From assembly GCA_008933765.1 (NCBI GenBank), contig WBUK01000011.1:1-64000 (forward strand): a stretch of DNA of 64,000 nt. Reading direction: 5' to 3'. The DNA comes from Ignavibacteriaceae bacterium. Lineage in GTDB: Bacteria; Bacteroidota; Ignavibacteria; Ignavibacteriales; Ignavibacteriaceae. The translations under genes were made by a program, and so were the position numbers. Below the pieces are notes generated by a model, which was given only the letters and a program-made list of their open reading frames with translations, did not search any database and had not been told where the DNA came from. Below are positions 56,502 through 64,000 of the stretch, one piece after another. Each line of letters starts with the position of its first letter. Position 1 is the first letter of the stretch.

Positions 56502-56951
56502 ATGGAGCAAACAGAACGACAACGGCAACTCCTGAGCATTATGGGGGTTGTTACGCCCTGCACGGTTGCAAAAGTTCATTACACAATCTTATCTTTCGGC
56601 AATGAAAAGAAACCATATCACTTTGCCGTTAACCAAACAGTGTTTTCTGACTCACTCGATATAGTTGAGTTTATTCCTTTATCCACAAACCCCAAAAATA
56701 AAAGATATACGGTCGAATTGAATCTCGCCAAACACTCAGACTGCAAAGAGGCAGAGAATGAAAGGCTTGATCGCGTCTCTTATGCTATTTTGAGAAATCT
56801 CAGGGGGGTTAAACTCGCTCACCTTTTCAATCAGCCGGCAACTCATTTCCGGGGGAAATTAACCCCGGAGAAGTGCCGGGAGATTAAAGCCGCCAGAAGA
56901 AATTATATTCTGTGGCACCGCGGAAATAAAAAAAGTCAGGTGGGAAAATGA
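56502..56951 (+). CDS. Unknown 149-residue protein, first gene of sigma/protease cassette
   Basis: No family is recognised. The N-terminal two thirds has beta-strand pattern (TVAKVHYTILSFGNEKKPYHFAV and KRYTVELNLAKHS), with two Cys (C17, C75-region). The C-terminal part is basic and helical (LTPEKCREIKAARRN), a possible nucleic-acid or RNA polymerase contact. It has no membrane segment or signal peptide. It overlaps the sigma-like gene by an ATGA junction, so the proteins are probably made in fixed ratio and work together. Confidence 0.7.
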   Translation: MEQTERQRQLLSIMGVVTPCTVAKVHYTILSFGNEKKPYHFAVNQTVFSDSLDIVEFIPLSTNPKNKRYTVELNLAKHSDCKEAENERLDRVSYAILRNLRGVKLAHLFNQPATHFRGKLTPEKCREIKAARRNYILWHRGNKKSQVGK

Positions 56952-58141
56952 GCAGAGAAACCGGAAAAACCAATAATAAGCCTTTGTATCAATCCTTCGC
57001 TGACTATTATAATATCGGCACAATTGACGAAGCAATGTTTTATGCCATCGAAAACGCAATTTCGGACTATTTTGGCAGAGTTAATGCTAACTATCCTACT
57101 TATTTCACAAAATGTGGGTTCACCGACGAAGAGGCATTCCTGATGCATTTCAGTGAAGAGTTTTGGAAACAAAAATTAGAAACCGGTGGTGGTTTTATGT
57201 TTCTTAGCCAACTTGATAATGATGAGGCGGTAAAATCTAATCTGCGCCGGTTTGTAAAACAATTTTACAATTCCCGCTGCACTGAACAGGATGTAAAAAG
57301 TGCGAAGGAAGTTTTGGACACAATCATCGCTAAATTGCATTCGCTCAAATTGATAGATGTTTATAAAGTTGGAGAAAGAAAAAAAGACCGGAGATTTTCT
57401 AAGAAAGTGGATTTGGTATTTGAAGATATAGTTAAGCAAATGACCTCTCAGTTTCAAAATGATGAAAAAAAATACTCTTCCCTTTATAAAGTTATTGAAT
57501 ATCTTAATGACTACGGCACTGTACCTTATTACGATTTAGTAAACGAGATCAGAAGTTTTTTTATTGCATACACAACAGGAAGAATTGAAGAACAACAAGC
57601 CGAAAGGCAACACATCACACCGGAAGGGGATGAAGAGACGCCCGAAGCATCAGGAATTGATGATATAGAATATTACAACCCTGAATATCAGGAAGATTTT
57701 GAAGACTCTCCGGAAAATCCTGAAATTACCCGCTCTTATCTCAGTGAGATCGTTTCGCGTGATTTGCGTTCGACTGTCACTTTGTTTTCAGACAAAAATG
57801 AATTATTAAACGAATTGCAATATAACCGGATAGAATGCCTCCCTCGAACAAGAAAATTGGTTGAATTGATCCTTAAAAAAGTGGAAATAACCGATTTGAA
57901 TATCTTCATGCTCTGTTGGCTGATTAAAGGGAAATTGGAAGGTCCTATCCCTAATAATGTGCTGGAAACACTTTGCCGGATTACGGGGAAGGGCAAATCC
58001 ACTGTTTACGAAAGGTATAAAAAATTTCAATTGAATTTATCCGAATTGAAATCGGACGATAATTTAAGTTTTAATGAAGATGACTTCATATCTGCAATAC
58101 TACAGATACATCAGGTTTACGAAAGGAAATACGCACTATGA
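56948..58141 (+). CDS. Sigma-70-like (ECF-type) transcription factor
   Basis: A 397-residue protein. Residues about 28-112 resemble sigma region 2 of ECF factors: a helical stretch AIENAISDYF, then GFTDEEAFLMHFSEEFWKQKL, the acidic helix where ECF factors have the DAEDLVQEVF motif, and NLRRFVKQFYNSR. The middle (about 113-260) is an extended helical linker ending in an acidic stretch. Residues 298-362 (LPRTRKLVELIL ... LCRITGKGKSTVYERYKKF) form a region-4-like helix-turn-helix. This is longer than ordinary ECF factors (about 180-200 residues). It overlaps both neighbours by ATGA. It should be the transcriptional output of the cassette (inference). Confidence 0.55.
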   Translation: MSRETGKTNNKPLYQSFADYYNIGTIDEAMFYAIENAISDYFGRVNANYPTYFTKCGFTDEEAFLMHFSEEFWKQKLETGGGFMFLSQLDNDEAVKSNLRRFVKQFYNSRCTEQDVKSAKEVLDTIIAKLHSLKLIDVYKVGERKKDRRFSKKVDLVFEDIVKQMTSQFQNDEKKYSSLYKVIEYLNDYGTVPYYDLVNEIRSFFIAYTTGRIEEQQAERQHITPEGDEETPEASGIDDIEYYNPEYQEDFEDSPENPEITRSYLSEIVSRDLRSTVTLFSDKNELLNELQYNRIECLPRTRKLVELILKKVEITDLNIFMLCWLIKGKLEGPIPNNVLETLCRITGKGKSTVYERYKKFQLNLSELKSDDNLSFNEDDFISAILQIHQVYERKYAL

Positions 58142-59544
58142 ATCCGTTTTTTAACGAAACAGATTTAAGAACTCTGCCCGCTGAATTGATTCAAAAATAT
58201 AACCGGGGAGAGTGCAGCGTCAGCGAAAAAGAATTGGTGGAAGCGCTGAAAGATCTGCCGCAAAATTTTGTGCAGTTCTTAACTGCTCCGGTTGATATCC
58301 CCGAGGCTTCCGACACTTCCGACACTTCCGGATACTCCGATACCCGTAACACTTCCGACACTTCCCCATCTTCCGATGCCCATAACACCTCCGAGGCTTC
58401 TGACAAACCGGAGAGTGAAGAGAAATCAAAAGCAAGAACTGAACTCTTCAGGAAACTTGCTGAACAGGCGGTAAAAGAAGGCAAAACCGGAAGTGTACCC
58501 CCTGAGGATGAGTTCACGGAACCCACCATGGGGCAGATTTGGTCGGTCAGAACCGATTTGGGGAAAGATGCCAATATAGGCGTCGATGTGCTGCCACTGG
58601 TTAGCTCCCCTTATATTTTTCTGCTGACTAACCCTGTAAGCCTTTCGGATACTTCCGGTGAAACCGGTTTGCGGCTTCACAAAGAAGATCGCTTTGTTGA
58701 ATTTTTACCCGTTTCCCTGAGCACCGAATACTCCGACCGCCATGATTTTATCGTACCGGCAAACAACGATATTCTTGGTGTTGAGTTCATGGTGGAAACC
58801 CAGCTTTTGGGCAGTTGCTTAGTTTCCGACCTGGCTGAGTGCTTCGGAGAACTCCCGGAAGAGGAAGAGGAAAAAGTGCTGAACCTGCACTTCTTCACTC
58901 ACGGAATGGAGTATGACGAAGAACTGCTGGCTAAAACAAAAACCGGGCGCGAAAATGAGGAGAAAAACTTCTTCATCCGCGATTTTAAAGAGATCGAATT
59001 CCGGAACCTCAGGATGATAGAAGAACCGGTAAGAGCGCTTGAAAATATCATCGAATTTTCGGAAGTAGTTACAATTCCCCGTGAAGGTTACGCGCTTGCG
59101 GCTGCAGACCGTAATACTAATATTGGCGGGTTAGTGCCGAAAACCACGCGAATCCTGTTTGAAAATGATAACCTTTCCGTTAAAATTAACTCGTACGAAA
59201 ATTTGGGTTACTATTTCAACATAAACATAGCATCTGAGTTGCTGGCAACTAAATCTTCGGCTGATAAATCGACGGCAACTGAATCGTTAACTTCAAAGCC
59301 GCCGGTGTCCGAATCGTTGCCGTCTGAACAGCTGCCGCCTGAACCCCACAGCGGGAAATTTTCTTTTATCTCCGAAAAAATCGACGATTCATCCGTGAAA
59401 TTGGAGCATAAAGACCTCACCCCCGACGAGTATTTCTTCCCGTTCTATTCAGAATTTACCGACGGGTTTTACCGGCTCAGCATCGTCGCCGACGGAAAAA
59501 CCCTCTGGCACGACGAATTTAAAATTTTAACGGAGAAGGAATGA
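58138..59544 (+). CDS. Putative anti-sigma with PemK/MazF-like region (CalpT-like)
   Basis: A 468-residue protein in parts. Residues 1-52 (LPAELIQKYNRGECSVSEKELVEAL) resemble the N-terminal anti-sigma motif of FecR/HC2-like proteins, but lack the HC2 zinc-binding Cys/His set. Residues 56-96 are a disordered Ser/Asp/Thr linker (about ten DTS- or ASD-type units), easily cut by a protease. Residues 128-245 (MGQIWSVRTDLG, PYIFLLTNPVSL, RFVEFLPVSL, GVEFMVETQLLGSCLVSDLAECFGEL) have the strand order of PemK/MazF-like SH3 barrels. A second disordered stretch lies at 370-405 and a C-terminal beta domain follows. The described CalpT is a MazF-like anti-sigma cut by a CRISPR protease, which fits. Confidence 0.5.
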   Translation: MNPFFNETDLRTLPAELIQKYNRGECSVSEKELVEALKDLPQNFVQFLTAPVDIPEASDTSDTSGYSDTRNTSDTSPSSDAHNTSEASDKPESEEKSKARTELFRKLAEQAVKEGKTGSVPPEDEFTEPTMGQIWSVRTDLGKDANIGVDVLPLVSSPYIFLLTNPVSLSDTSGETGLRLHKEDRFVEFLPVSLSTEYSDRHDFIVPANNDILGVEFMVETQLLGSCLVSDLAECFGELPEEEEEKVLNLHFFTHGMEYDEELLAKTKTGRENEEKNFFIRDFKEIEFRNLRMIEEPVRALENIIEFSEVVTIPREGYALAAADRNTNIGGLVPKTTRILFENDNLSVKINSYENLGYYFNINIASELLATKSSADKSTATESLTSKPPVSESLPSEQLPPEPHSGKFSFISEKIDDSSVKLEHKDLTPDEYFFPFYSEFTDGFYRLSIVADGKTLWHDEFKILTEKE

Positions 59545-60875
59545 GTACGGCGTTCGATGAAGTTCCTGATGATCTTCAGCTTGCATTAAATCAGGGCAGA
59601 GTGCTCTCTGCTGTTAAAATTGCCGTTGAACTTTTCAACGAAGCTGCAGGTATAAATAAAAACAGAATACGCACCCTGATCCGTTCTTTGGCTGAAAACC
59701 CGGAAATTAACGCCGTTTGGGATGAAGTTACCGCTGCGGAGGTAGCGAAAACTATCGACAATCAGGTTAACATGCGTGATGAAAATCATTTTATCGGCAA
59801 AGCATTTTTCCCCGTTTTTAGTGATCAGGAGAGCCGTTTGGTTCTTTTAGAAGCCCTTGATGTATTGTCACCCGAAATTGTACAGTTTAAAATTCAGGAG
59901 GAATCGAAGGGGGCTTTTTTAACACAGATAATGGGGCTTTGGCAATTCCTCAATAAACGCATAACTAAACCGGAGACCGGAAGTGCAAATGATGTAACAG
60001 TGCTTAACTGGGGGATTTCTTACCGTACTCATTCTAATCCGTTTTCAGAGGGTATTTTTGCCGGGGATAAAATGCCGGAACTTACCGGACGGTCGCTTCA
60101 CTTTGCTTCAATAGTTGCGACGGTTTCTTTAATTACGGGGCGATACATTAACCCTGAATTTGTTTTCACGGGTACCCTGAATGTTAACGGTAAAAGTGAG
60201 AAAATTGGGCACCTGATTGAAAAATCTGAATTGGTCAAGGCGGAAAGGGGAACCTCGGTGAAAATAGTGATTCCCGATATTAACTCATTTCCGAAACCTG
60301 AAAGAGATTATATCGAAAACAACCGTAATATTTTCAAGCCGGTTAAAAATCTTGAAGAGCTGATTGAAGCTGCATTTGAAATACCCGCGGATGAGGTCCT
60401 TACAATTCAGGATGAAAAGCGATATGAGATCGGGAGTACACGGCTTATCGCGGAAAATCTCGGTGTAAGGCAATTAACACTGTACCATAGGTTCGATGAT
60501 TACAAATTCAGTCATGCAGTGCACAATTTTAATGTTGTAAGGTGTAAGGTTTTTGAGCCAATAGGGTTGGAAAATAAATCGGTTTACAATGTTTATCCTT
60601 TGCAGCAAATCAATTTTCTTCCTAACCCGCGAAACGGGCTTGAAACATTGGTGGTTATTAATTTCCGGACATCTATATCGCTGACTGCAAACCTTGTCTC
60701 CAATAACCCGCAATCGCGTGATATATATGCCATAAGAATGGGGCCCAAATCTGACGAATATCAAATTTTTGCACACCCGCAGGGTAAAAGCAGAGAATAT
60801 GTCGGGAAATATTTTAACCAAGCCGATCTTGAATTAAGCGGCAACTACGGAAGTCAAAGCAATCAGGGTTATTAA
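59541..60875 (+). CDS. Lon-like (S16) Ser-Lys protease, CalpL-like
   Basis: A 444-residue protein without membrane segment. Residues about 155-280 match the Lon proteolytic domain: GRSLHFASIVATVSLITG aligns column by column with Lon GPSAG...LVS-LTG, TGTL with TGEI, and IGHLIEK with IGGLKEK. The catalytic Ser is S185 and Lys is K228, exactly 43 apart as S679/K722 in E. coli Lon. The AAA+ unfoldase is absent, so it is not a housekeeping Lon. Residues 1-150 are helical. Residues 285-444 form a beta-rich domain I cannot assign; in CalpL this place holds a SAVED sensor. It probably cleaves the neighbouring protein at 58138. Confidence 0.72.
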   Translation: MSTAFDEVPDDLQLALNQGRVLSAVKIAVELFNEAAGINKNRIRTLIRSLAENPEINAVWDEVTAAEVAKTIDNQVNMRDENHFIGKAFFPVFSDQESRLVLLEALDVLSPEIVQFKIQEESKGAFLTQIMGLWQFLNKRITKPETGSANDVTVLNWGISYRTHSNPFSEGIFAGDKMPELTGRSLHFASIVATVSLITGRYINPEFVFTGTLNVNGKSEKIGHLIEKSELVKAERGTSVKIVIPDINSFPKPERDYIENNRNIFKPVKNLEELIEAAFEIPADEVLTIQDEKRYEIGSTRLIAENLGVRQLTLYHRFDDYKFSHAVHNFNVVRCKVFEPIGLENKSVYNVYPLQQINFLPNPRNGLETLVVINFRTSISLTANLVSNNPQSRDIYAIRMGPKSDEYQIFAHPQGKSREYVGKYFNQADLELSGNYGSQSNQGY

Positions 60876-60928: not shown

Positions 60929-61357
60929 ATGGATAAGAGTAATAATACAAAACCGGTGAAGTCTCTTTTCGCGGTGATTTTTGCTTTGTTTATTGCAGCC
61001 GGCACGGTTGAAACTTCATACGCACAGGCTCGGATAGGGTCCACTTCCTATGATATCATCTCAGAGTTTCGTTCTGAAGGAATAACCTGGCAAACCGCAA
61101 ATGATGGTGAAAAATACCTTGCCTGCAATTTGACCCGCGCATTTGTCTGTTATTTTTTCGATGATGATGACCGTTGCTCGCTCACTTTAGTTTTTCCCAA
61201 AAGGCAGGGTGATCTTAATTTTTATTGCCAAAAGTATAACGATGAAGCCGTAATTATTTCCGATACAAAGTGGAAACTCTATCTGAAAGAGGGAATTTTA
61301 AATATCGAGCTGATTTACACCGATGAAGGAAGTTATTTTTTCAGAATTTGGGAATAA
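60929..61357 (+). CDS. Small secreted protein, unknown
   Basis: A 142-residue protein with signal peptide (AVIFALFIAAGTVETSYA-Q, cleavage about 33) and a mature beta-rich part with three Cys (ACNL, FVCYFF, FYCQKY). The RBS is AAAGAGG 6 bp from the ATG. It lies between the protease gene and the CARF gene, codirectional, but separated from both by 50 bp or more. Its envelope location argues against a direct part in cytoplasmic CRISPR signalling. Confidence 0.7.
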   Translation: MDKSNNTKPVKSLFAVIFALFIAAGTVETSYAQARIGSTSYDIISEFRSEGITWQTANDGEKYLACNLTRAFVCYFFDDDDRCSLTLVFPKRQGDLNFYCQKYNDEAVIISDTKWKLYLKEGILNIELIYTDEGSYFFRIWE

Positions 61358-61469
61358 AACAGAGCCGTTTTTAACAGTGTGCCGCACGAAAAATCGTTGA
61401 AAATTTTTTTCTCTTCAACGGATGGGTGAAGTGTGTACATCTGTAAAATTTTTAAAACTGAGGTATCCA

Positions 61470-62894
61470 ATGCTTAGAATTGTAACAACAGTGGGCACAA
61501 GCCTACTGATGAATTATAAAAAATTCCTGGAAGAGACAAACAGTCCCGCTTTCAGCAGTTTCGCTGATTTTTTTAACAAAATCTCTTCCGGGCCCCACTC
61601 TGAATATGCAAACCACGAAGATGAGATAAATTCTCACATACCCGCACTTCTTGACTATATTAAAAATGCCGGAAGTGCCGCCTCGGCTGAAGTTAAGAGC
61701 TGCAACTTGATACTGATAAAATATCCGGATGAAGCAACCATCTGCCTTATAGCAACAGATACTGTTACATCTGCTTTTGCAGCAGAAGTGTTGCGCCAAT
61801 ATTTTAACGAAAAAGAGAACAATACCGACAGAATTAAATGTTTCTTCTCGCCCGATGATTCAAACCATGTCATCCCCGGTCTTCAGGTGGCGGATACTGA
61901 AACTTTCACTTCCGAAGGGTTGCGGAATCTGCTTAAGGCACTTTACCATCACCTTGTTGAAGGTATTGATCCGCGCTCCGGCGGCACTCGTCTGGTTAAC
62001 ATTACCGGTGGATTCAAGGGGGTTATTCCATATTTAACCATGTTTTCGCTGATAAAGGGGTTCCCGATAACTTATGTTTTTGAAAATACAAATCAGTTGA
62101 TTGAAATTCCGCCTCTCCCGTTTGGTTTCGAAGGTGCGTATGTGGAAAAATATGCTTATATGCTTTTCAACCGGAGGAAATTAGATTATGAGTCAAAGCA
62201 GGAGTTAAGATCCCTCGGCTTGATGGACGAAAAGAATGAACTTACAGCGCTCGGTTCGCTCCTTTTTGAATACGAGGTTGAATACCGCCCCACTTCCGTT
62301 AATGTTATCGGGTTGGTTATTGAATATAAATTAATGGAGTACTACACACAAAATCCTTTTCCGGATTATACATACCTCGAACGCGGCAATCTTTTTCTTG
62401 CAGGCGAGAAAATTAAAGCGCCTCCAAAGGGTGCGGAGATCGATCTTGTACTCAAAGAATCAGAAGAGGAAATCAACAATACAAACTACATAGCCGTTGA
62501 GTGTAAATCTGCAAGAATTTTCCTTTCCAAATTTGAGAAGATCAAAGAACAGTTCAAAAAGAAATTAAAATTAATGCTTAGTAATGCAACCGTGCCCGAC
62601 GAGTTTCACTTCTTTTTCTATACTTTTCCTCCTAAAAAGGGAGATATTTCCCGGGAGATTGAAATTTTCAAACACCGGGCGTACCGTACTGATGGCGGCA
62701 CAAACACAAAAACATCTCACTTTGAAGAACTTAGCCGACTGCTTACCGATTTTTTCCCCGGGAAAAAAATCCGTTTCTTCTTTGCCACATTCGAGCTTAA
62801 CCGTGTTTACGACTATGATAACCCCTACCAAAGTTTTGTTAACGAAAAATTAGTCCGGGGTGTTAATTTTGCGGAGATAGAGATTGAAAAATAA
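61470..62894 (+). CDS. CARF-domain PD-(D/E)XK nuclease (type III CRISPR ancillary effector)
   Basis: A 474-residue protein from the ATG at 61470, chosen for the CTGAGGT site and because it begins directly with MLRIVTTVGTSLL. The N-terminal CARF domain has VGTS (8-11) and NITGGFK (177-183), the ligand-binding loops of Csm6/Csx1/APE2256-type sensors of cyclic oligoadenylate. A winged-helix-like segment follows (ELRSLGLMDEKNELTALGSLL). The C-terminal PD-(D/E)XK motif is EID-x18-ECK with D325, E344 and K346, as in Card1/Can2 nucleases. It should become a DNase or RNase when cyclic oligoadenylate binds. It is followed by cas2. Confidence 0.82.
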   Translation: MLRIVTTVGTSLLMNYKKFLEETNSPAFSSFADFFNKISSGPHSEYANHEDEINSHIPALLDYIKNAGSAASAEVKSCNLILIKYPDEATICLIATDTVTSAFAAEVLRQYFNEKENNTDRIKCFFSPDDSNHVIPGLQVADTETFTSEGLRNLLKALYHHLVEGIDPRSGGTRLVNITGGFKGVIPYLTMFSLIKGFPITYVFENTNQLIEIPPLPFGFEGAYVEKYAYMLFNRRKLDYESKQELRSLGLMDEKNELTALGSLLFEYEVEYRPTSVNVIGLVIEYKLMEYYTQNPFPDYTYLERGNLFLAGEKIKAPPKGAEIDLVLKESEEEINNTNYIAVECKSARIFLSKFEKIKEQFKKKLKLMLSNATVPDEFHFFFYTFPPKKGDISREIEIFKHRAYRTDGGTNTKTSHFEELSRLLTDFFPGKKIRFFFATFELNRVYDYDNPYQSFVNEKLVRGVNFAEIEIEK

Positions 62895-62964: not shown

Positions 62965-63249
62965 ATGTTCTACCTTGTTACTTACGATGTAGTAAAAGAT
63001 AAAAATCGTAAAAAAGTTTCTGATTTACTTGTTGAGTATGGTGTCAGAGTACAGTACAGTGTTTTCGAGTGTGACTTAACCGAAAAAGATCTGAAAACTA
63101 TAATCAAAAAAGCAGAACCCCTTATTGACGAGAGCACCGATTCAATTTTTTTCTATCCGTTTTGTAAAAATTGTTCAGGTAAAAGGGTTTCATTAGGTAC
63201 AACTTATTCTTTGGTCAAAATAAAAAGAGAATTTCTCGATGTAATGTAA
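62965..63249 (+). CDS. cas2: CRISPR-associated protein Cas2
   Basis: A 94-residue Cas2 with ferredoxin-like fold: MFYLVTYDVVKDKNRKKVSDLLVEYGVRVQYSVFECDLT has the first strand with the DV metal-site Asp, the GxRVQ(Y/K)S motif and C-terminal YPFCKNCSGK. It forms the spacer-acquisition complex with Cas1. The reverse transcriptase start is 5 bp after its stop, so the two are co-transcribed. Confidence 0.95.
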   Translation: MFYLVTYDVVKDKNRKKVSDLLVEYGVRVQYSVFECDLTEKDLKTIIKKAEPLIDESTDSIFFYPFCKNCSGKRVSLGTTYSLVKIKREFLDVM

Positions 63250-63253
63250 CAGT

Positions 63254-64000
63254 ATGGAAAATCTGCACGCTCTTTTCTCTGATGCTGCATTGCAGGAAGC
63301 GTGGCAAAAGGTAAGAAGTAAAGGTAAAAGCGGTGGTATCGATAATATATCCATCACTGAATTTGAAAGTGACCTCGCTAAAAATCTGAAATCTCTTCGT
63401 GCCGAGGTGATAGCGGGGAATTATGTGCCCGAACCGTACAAATTATTCTTTATTGAGAAAGAAAATAAACCGAAAAAAGAACTCCGGCCTCTCGCCTTGA
63501 TGACAATCCGCGATAAAATAACCCAGCATGTAATCGCACTTCATTATTCTCCTTTATTTGAAAAAAAGTTCATTGATACCAGTTACGCCTACCGTTCCGG
63601 TAAAGGGCATCCAAAAGCCATTGCCCGAGTTGCCGACTTCCTCAACCGTAAATTCACCTTTGTTGCAAACCTTGATATAGATAATTTTTTTGATACAATT
63701 AACCGAAAAACTCTTTTCAATGCCTGCAGCGAATGGTTCAGCCAACCGGAAATATTAAAACTTTTGGAAATGTGGGTGCTGACCGGGTTCGTCCATCACG
63801 GAAAATATATCAAATCCGAAACAGGGATTGCTCAAGGCGGCGTGCTCTCTCCTCTGCTTTCAAACATTTATCTCCACCCTTTGGATCAGATTCTGTTTGA
63901 CAATGCGATTTCAAATGTAAGATATGCCGATAACATTATCCTGTTCGGGAAATCGAAGCAAGAAGTTCTGGCGCGTAAAAAATTTGTCGCCGATTTTATC
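63254..64000 (+). CDS. CRISPR-associated reverse transcriptase, probably RT-Cas1 fusion (partial)
   Basis: An open frame of 249 codons that runs off the window, so the end is not seen. It is a group II intron-like reverse transcriptase: N-terminal GKSGGIDNISITEFE, RPLALMTIRDKITQHVIA, motif A LDIDNFFDTI (D141), the QGGVLSPLLSNIYLHPLDQ motif and the catalytic box YADN at 224-227. The usual second Asp of YADD is Asn here. Position after cas2 indicates an RT-cas1 acquisition module that could take spacers from RNA. Whether Cas1 is fused at the C-terminus cannot be seen. Confidence 0.88.
   Translation, partial: MENLHALFSDAALQEAWQKVRSKGKSGGIDNISITEFESDLAKNLKSLRAEVIAGNYVPEPYKLFFIEKENKPKKELRPLALMTIRDKITQHVIALHYSPLFEKKFIDTSYAYRSGKGHPKAIARVADFLNRKFTFVANLDIDNFFDTINRKTLFNACSEWFSQPEILKLLEMWVLTGFVHHGKYIKSETGIAQGGVLSPLLSNIYLHPLDQILFDNAISNVRYADNIILFGKSKQEVLARKKFVADFI

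Follow-up and report, generated by a model that had tools for sequence, protein, structure and literature searches.

A 64,000-nucleotide stretch of an Ignavibacteriaceae bacterium genome (contig WBUK01000011.1 of assembly GCA_008933765.1; hereafter the window) carries a four-gene cassette on its forward strand, beside a type III CRISPR locus. We favor, at slightly better than even confidence, its being a signal-activated proteolytic switch, in which a predicted Lon protease with a likely Csx3-derived receptor would free a probable sigma-70-like factor upon infection. By family profile, gene 1 (56502..56951) encodes a small MazF/PemK-like protein of 149 amino acids (aa), gene 2 (56948..58141) a sigma-70-like protein of 397 aa, twice the usual size of an extracytoplasmic function (ECF) sigma factor, and gene 3 (58138..59544) a 468-aa protein with a MazF-like barrel, predicted to be both the inhibitor (anti-sigma) and the protease substrate. 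Gene 4 (59541..60875) encodes a 444-aa protease assigned to the Lon fold by profile and predicted structure, its C-terminal domain being the putative sensor. Three ATGA overlaps, at 56948, 58138 and 59541, join the genes, as described in the first-pass annotation, which was made from the letters of the window alone; the coordinates and lengths are exact. That annotation had left gene 1 as an unknown protein, to which the family profile now adds the MazF/PemK likeness.

The proposed mechanism is modeled on the Calp system, in which binding of cyclic tetra-adenylate (cA4) to a SAVED domain turns on the Lon domain, with cleavage of CalpT and release of the sigma factor CalpS (PMC11417357, PMC12751052). 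By analogy, from which we infer every binding and cleavage step, Cas10 would sense infection and make a cyclic oligoadenylate, and the Csx3-like tail of the gene 4 product would bind cA4 or another such molecule. The bound ligand would then activate the Lon domain to cut the MazF-like inhibitor encoded by gene 3, and this cleavage would free the gene 2 product to bind RNA polymerase and reprogram transcription. The gene 1 product may form a second MazF-like arm, either as an RNase or as a partner of the gene 3 product.

The Lon protease and its C-terminal domain

The window's gene 4 product matches Pfam Lon_C (expectation value, E, 1.3e-4) and has an AF2-predicted Lon fold, which bears out the Lon-like protease of the first-pass annotation. 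Both positions of the catalytic dyad are occupied as expected: the residue at Ser185 (codon 60093..60095, forward strand) is serine and that at Lys228 (60222..60224, forward strand) is lysine in 17/17 aligned sequences, the window included. AAA+ families did not turn up in Pfam scans of the window's and its relatives' proteins. Against CalpL (7qda), the Lon family profile gives E 3e-6 in an alignment confined to the Lon part, and the PADLOC model for CARF-Lon matches the Lon part of the G184 relative (6e-11). A BrxL match to gene 4 (E 0.014) reflects nothing but the shared Lon fold, and we rejected this identity.

What could serve as the sensor? Across the family, the C-terminal domain is predicted to be Csx3/Crn3-like rather than SAVED, as both sequence profiles and a predicted fold, that of the tail of the G395 protein, match Csx3/Crn3. 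The match of the tail model was obtained in a second look with VIA-align, whose list contained neither CalpL nor other SAVED chains and carries no weight as an exclusion of them. As a sensor, SAVED has no profile support: outside the Lon part, scans with Pfam, NCBIfam and PADLOC gave no SAVED match, just as the first-pass annotation had noted, and the CalpL match stops where the Lon part ends. Since SAVED was not found, we do not file the cassette under the Lon-SAVED family. Two results weigh against the Csx3 assignment: Foldseek with the tail model returned no match at E 0.001, and once G216 and the window group were omitted, Csx3 still came first in the PDB, but at E 0.41, with unrelated chains at 0.49.

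The window's own tail (60387..60872, forward strand), which groups with three close relatives (P0002, P0003 and G458), is a harder case. It was not found by a profile of the other tails, gave E 0.13 with hhalign when compared directly with Csx3, and reached only E 0.64 against one alignment of the other tails, all of which speaks against a relationship. With a different alignment of those tails, however, the profile-profile comparison placed 120 columns in register at a score of 23.15 (E 0.004), which 0/300 permutations reached (best 21.1). We therefore regard the window's tail as a likely diverged copy of the family's Csx3-like domain, and our model supposes that it has kept the receptor function. 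In the AF2 model of the window's Lon protein the tail is poor (from residue 291, block means of 29-60), so that we make no claim about its fold; its predicted strands share, at low confidence, the order of those in the tail model of G395. For these comparisons, the Csx3 set comprised 8/12 hit loci, omitting L064 (a duplicate), L067 (without a clean frame), L057 (truncated) and L068 (the Lon protein of G216), and the window's Lon group was deliberately kept out of alignment A6.

For AfCsx3, PMC7371418 names H60 and D69 as essential, describes H57, H60 and H80 as absolutely conserved, and includes S44, G45, R46, I49 and R71 among the contacts to cA4. We mapped residues of 15 tails onto this protein via stand-alone Csx3 proteins of the phylum. 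Histidine is found at the H57 place in 0/15, so that the H57-H60 pair is kept in none, and at the H60 place or next to it in three (G414, G001 and G011). Aspartate occupies the D69 place in six (the second copy of G458, G424, G395, G066, G216 and G001). No tail has all three of H57, H60 and D69, and that of the window has none of them. With the histidine pair lost, the receptor, in contrast to the SAVED domain of CalpL, is predicted not to break down its ligand, at least not in the manner of Csx3; most tails probably do not cut cA4 in this way, G001 being the least clear. These residues suggest that the family domain is a ring nuclease that became a receptor. Of the residues through which AfCsx3 contacts cA4, the tails retain only some, which speaks against cA4 binding. 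A ring nuclease gene, csx20, adjoins the cassette in G216 and lies close to it in G498 (PADLOC 8.1e-33 and 3.6e-35); the main substrate of Csx20 is cA4 (PMC12409355). In other members of the phylum (L058, L063 and L064), a Csx3 domain is, by reading, fused to a P-loop ATPase-like part.

Recurrence of the cassette and its tie to type III CRISPR

We searched 395 genomes of the phylum and 164 of the order, and the same 395 again with a wider profile; neighborhoods were read, and cassette counts are lower bounds among the matches listed. At least 15 cassettes were found in at least 14 genomes, with genes 3 and 4 in 15/15 and genes 1 and 2 in 14/15; at a contig end in G066, genes 3 and 4 are accompanied by a fragment of gene 2 only. 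The gene order is that of the window everywhere except in G216, where lon comes first, and overlaps or gaps are short. Because the four gene types occur side by side in 12 genomes besides that of the window (at least 13 in all), the cassette is more than a chance arrangement. The proteins themselves are rare. The Lon protein had three matches among 5.8 billion clustered proteins, one being its own fragment; a protein-database search with alignment A2 gave five, among which were this fragment and close duplicates of alignment rows; and gene 2 matched only itself. No match came from viral and genome contigs scanned with the Lon protein or alignment A1. From the length of their frames, G148 (979 aa) and weaker Lon matches were counted as ordinary Lon proteases, and P0009 and P0010, near copies of G373 and G184, were left out of several profiles.

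The neighborhood survey suggested by the first-pass annotation placed CRISPR or type III genes (III-A, III-B, cas1-cas2 or csx20) beside or near 7/15 cassettes, that of the window included, in members of five genera. In G009, the four genes are followed by cas10 and, by reading, csm2-csm5; in G497, by what reads as a Cmr-type set, with Cas10 and a CARF gene identified by profile. In G458, contig C524 holds genes 1-3 and the start of lon, and C339 its presumed rest, a secreted protein, cas10, csm2 and csm3. G001, from another family of the phylum, has an array of >30 repeats and (by reading) cas1 and cas2, then the four genes. In G498, the four genes run to the contig end, with csx20 ~2.8 kb upstream, a 4-repeat array on the contig and, below cut-off, a Card1-like protein (E 6.6e-4). 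In G216, csx20 adjoins lon, and genes 1, 2 and 3 lie on another contig that repeats the end of the first. Outside these seven, G414 has its cassette and a type III locus on one contig: ~11 kb separate the cassette from the end of that locus, and its cas10 is 25 kb away.

Cas10 (PF22335) is present in 48/164 genomes of the order overall. It was found in 10/12 cassette genomes tested versus 38/152 order genomes without a detected cassette (Fisher p 8.9e-5), a comparison in which four of the ten positives are cassettes adjoining cas10 itself, the genomes are related, and G001 and G011 stand outside the test. This enrichment, together with the linkage across five genera, is what argues for a CRISPR-derived signal. 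Might the native trigger nevertheless be something else? The same protease/MazF/sigma switch could be a general module for stress or conflict, whose Csx3/STAS-like receptor recognizes another ligand and which type III loci have repeatedly captured, an explanation that we consider unlikely, though worth keeping in view. In its favor, 7/15 cassettes (the second copy of G458, G184, G373, G395, G424, G011 and G066) read as having no CRISPR neighbor in the stretch fetched, the cA4 contacts are incompletely kept, as described above, and the Csx3 fold has been termed STAS-like (PMC7159879). That Cas10 is not the trigger in every case is argued most strongly by stand-alone copies: G184 and G373, both of completeness 100, carry the cassette at one chromosomal place (merR-type gene to priA) and have no Cas10 or SMODS match, which counts against our model in these genomes, where the cassette must use another signal or be idle. 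A signal of the cyclic-oligonucleotide-based anti-phage signaling system (CBASS) type was considered for these two and set aside for want of a SMODS match; other cyclases would still be compatible.

Further genes border individual cassettes. G458 holds two diverged copies, one CRISPR-linked (C524/C339; L077, L048) and one stand-alone (C183; L049). In G414, G424, G216 and G011, the cassette adjoins a gene pair that reads as a vWA-type lipoprotein and a membrane coiled-coil protein (L050 4432-6217, L055 1735-3859, L069 3259-5359 and L117 3680-6091; in L050, VWA_2 scores E 0.0012, short of its cut-off), which may be a further cassette component or a target. A similar membrane protein begins at L073 7684, on the cas10 contig of G498.

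In the window, the genes following on the same strand are those named by the first-pass annotation, preceded by a predicted secreted protein of 142 aa (60929..61357, by reading) between the cassette and the CARF gene. The latter (61422..62894) encodes an effector with a Cas_APE2256 CARF domain (Pfam E 3.3e-22; best PADLOC model CARF_RelE), after which come cas2 (62965..63249; Pfam E 8.4e-25) and the start of a reverse transcriptase (RT)-Cas1 fusion gene (63254..64000). This gene runs 1647 bases past the window and encodes 797 aa (Pfam reverse transcriptase E 4.4e-23, Cas1 E 2.4e-60). Beyond the window edge (L002) lie a CRISPR array of 31 repeats of 37 nucleotides with at most three mismatches and, after it, genes for a UvrD-like helicase, a 474-aa protein, Cas10 (Pfam E 7.2e-35; C36:74864, L002 13265-15673) and, by reading, csm2-csm5. 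This Cas10 keeps GGDD; its N-terminal motif is SDIGK, the usual histidine being gone. As Cas10 with GGDD, the array and csm genes stand at one locus, this is by sequence a type III-A system with the cyclase motif retained. The Cas10 at L035 5912-8362 likewise has an HD-like motif devoid of histidine (KDIGR) and keeps GGDD, so that both systems may rely on signaling alone; the Cas10 of G458 keeps HDIGK. As for the other genes of the locus, the 474-aa protein between helicase and cas10 (L002 11637-13061) has a single Pfam row (E 0.096), and the counterpart of the window's secreted-type protein in G458 has 136 aa and lies between lon and cas10 (L048 3852-4262).

The sigma-like and MazF-like partners

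The sigma-70-like nature of gene 2, claimed by the first-pass annotation, is supported at the family level and weak in the window protein alone; we hold it with moderate confidence. Compared with nine sigma factors of the window's genome, the gene-2 family profile (window pair omitted) reached E 4.9e-5, with a score of 40.8 against 14.1 for the best of 60 permutations, whereas controls (genes 1, 3, 4 and Csx3) remained at 0.19 to 0.64. The pair containing the window protein matched the same sigma factors over the region-4 part (E 0.011; 25.0 versus a permutation best of 18.2) and the gene-2 family with E 0.017 (24.8 versus 18.9). In the window, the profile alignment to sigma region 4 places a region-4-like helix-turn-helix at residues 338-371 (57959..58060, forward strand). 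The Pfam family matching most gene-2 members, 4/12, is Sigma70_r4_2, and in the second copy of G458 (L049), Sigma70_r2 (0.0046) is followed by Sigma70_r4_2 (5.9e-4), both sub-threshold and in the expected order.

The first-pass annotation had also named what would overturn its reading, namely failure of profile searches to find sigma regions in the gene 2 product and a Lon fold in the gene 4 product. The Lon fold was found and the family profile matched sigma factors, but the window's gene 2 protein by itself has no sigma match in Pfam, NCBIfam or the PDB. This absence tells against a sigma factor, as does the plain family profile, which gave the window protein only E 5.3 or 0.81. Gene 2 could hence be some other helix-turn-helix regulator in a cassette that would still be protease-controlled. 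Searched against the PDB, the family profile gave a mixture of helix-turn-helix and unrelated proteins, the best being unrelated (E 0.0081), which fits such a regulator; the match to genuine sigma factors, equaled in 0/60 permutations, and the Sigma70_r4_2 and N-terminal Sigma70_r2 matches make it improbable. A Csm2 identity (PADLOC/NCBIfam E 0.0045-0.017, for the window protein only) was weak and taken as chance, no Csm2 being among the families shown in Pfam scans of relatives, and two other proteins of the window, PhoH (0.0018) and RadC (0.017), which scored in a filter-free profile search, were dismissed on reading.

At the family level, genes 1 and 3 are MazF-like by profile. A joint profile of 12 gene-1 and 12 gene-3 proteins had MazF6/MazF9 chains as its first six PDB matches (E 0.0056 to 0.013), and PemK_toxin matches 5/24 members (best 2.9e-4), with the gene-1 relative in G497 below cut-off at E 3.8e-4. 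Although neither window protein has a Pfam PemK match, gene 3 of the window joins its family profile at E 4.6e-7, so the PemK/MazF-like barrel described by the first-pass annotation stands. The gene-1 profile missed gene 1 of the window (E 0.58 and 0.19); the pair formed with its G458 counterpart (48% identity) matches the gene-1 family in profile-profile comparison (E 1.2e-5, 0/60 permutations as good).

We could not uphold the anti-sigma-like N-terminus that the same annotation had given gene 3. The 131 aa before the barrel (58138..58530, forward strand) contain possible anti-sigma helices, a weak assignment, and a low-complexity linker. Their profile match to zf-HC2 anti-sigma proteins (E 0.044; comparison set of 17/20 loci) is nearly equaled by a control with gene 1 (0.08), and fewer than 55 aa precede the barrel in 5/13 gene-3 proteins. 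The anti-sigma role of gene 3 is put forward by analogy with CalpT, which weakens our model at this point. Could the protease instead free a MazF-like RNase, either gene 1 or a gene 3 fragment, and so arrest growth, with the sigma-like protein as inhibitor or autoregulator only? Two MazF-like genes per cassette would suit this explanation, and CalpT yields a 23-kDa fragment that was initially called MazF-like (PMC9704534). A pure inhibitor, however, would have no need of the region-4 signatures in the gene 2 family or of the region-2 match in one member, and we rate this explanation as doubtful. That the four genes are chance neighbors devoid of joint function, which the poor sequence conservation of the window's genes 1 and 2 might suggest, is refuted by their constant company across the genomes.

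Relation to known systems and significance

What kind of system would this be? As a release of a sigma factor by a signal-activated protease, the cassette would be a Lon-Csx3 signaling module, by analogy Calp-like in its working. With Calp (CalpL/CalpT/CalpS of Sulfurihydrogenibium), it shares a Lon protease with a putative C-terminal sensor, a MazF-like and a probable sigma-like partner, and a place beside type III CRISPR (PMC11417357, PMC9704534). The first-pass annotation's proposal of a Calp-like variant with a different sensor is supported by the Lon fold and dyad, the MazF-like and sigma-like partners, the recurrent CRISPR placement and the Csx3-like family sensor. Unlike Calp, the cassette comprises four genes rather than three, including a second MazF-like gene; their order is small protein, sigma, MazF, Lon; its sigma-like proteins measure 330-397 aa and have a long middle part; and stand-alone copies exist. 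Where CalpL senses through SAVED, the family has a Csx3-like domain, a receptor predicted, from its residues, to have lost ligand degradation by the Csx3 route.

That domain has the fold and sequence profile of Csx3/Crn3 but is fused to a protease and devoid of the H57/H60 pair. A sensor-Lon fusion is also predicted for CARF-Lon effectors (PMC9704534), from which the cassette differs in its Csx3-like, C-terminal sensor and in the likely partners identified here. Craspase/CASP (Csx29, Csx30, CASP-sigma) likewise combines a CRISPR-activated protease, a sigma inhibitor and a sigma factor; its protease, however, is the TPR-CHAT protein Csx29, which sits on Cas7-11 and is activated by target RNA, and for this system no cyclic-nucleotide sensor, Lon domain or MazF-like part is described in the source (PMC10028731). 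In the literature searched, covered in part and mostly without subscription papers and preprints, we found no description of a Lon-Csx3 or Csx3-Lon fusion.

We tentatively extend the proteolytic-switch model, in a form that falls somewhat short of even confidence: the Csx3 ring nuclease family, whose usual task is to shut CRISPR signaling down, may have lost its histidine pair, been joined to Lon and become a receptor that switches a sigma program on. Where Cas10 is missing, the switch would run on another nucleotide-like signal, as a defense-signaling module outside CRISPR. The family would illustrate a route from a signal-degrading fold to a signal receptor and place Csx3 as the third sensor class on a Lon protease, where SAVED and, by prediction, CARF are already represented. 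Transcriptional responses to infection are known for few CRISPR systems, and the compact four-gene unit lends itself to asking which genes such sigma factors control. The stand-alone copies in genomes without a Cas10 match, in turn, raise the question of which other signals may use the same switch.

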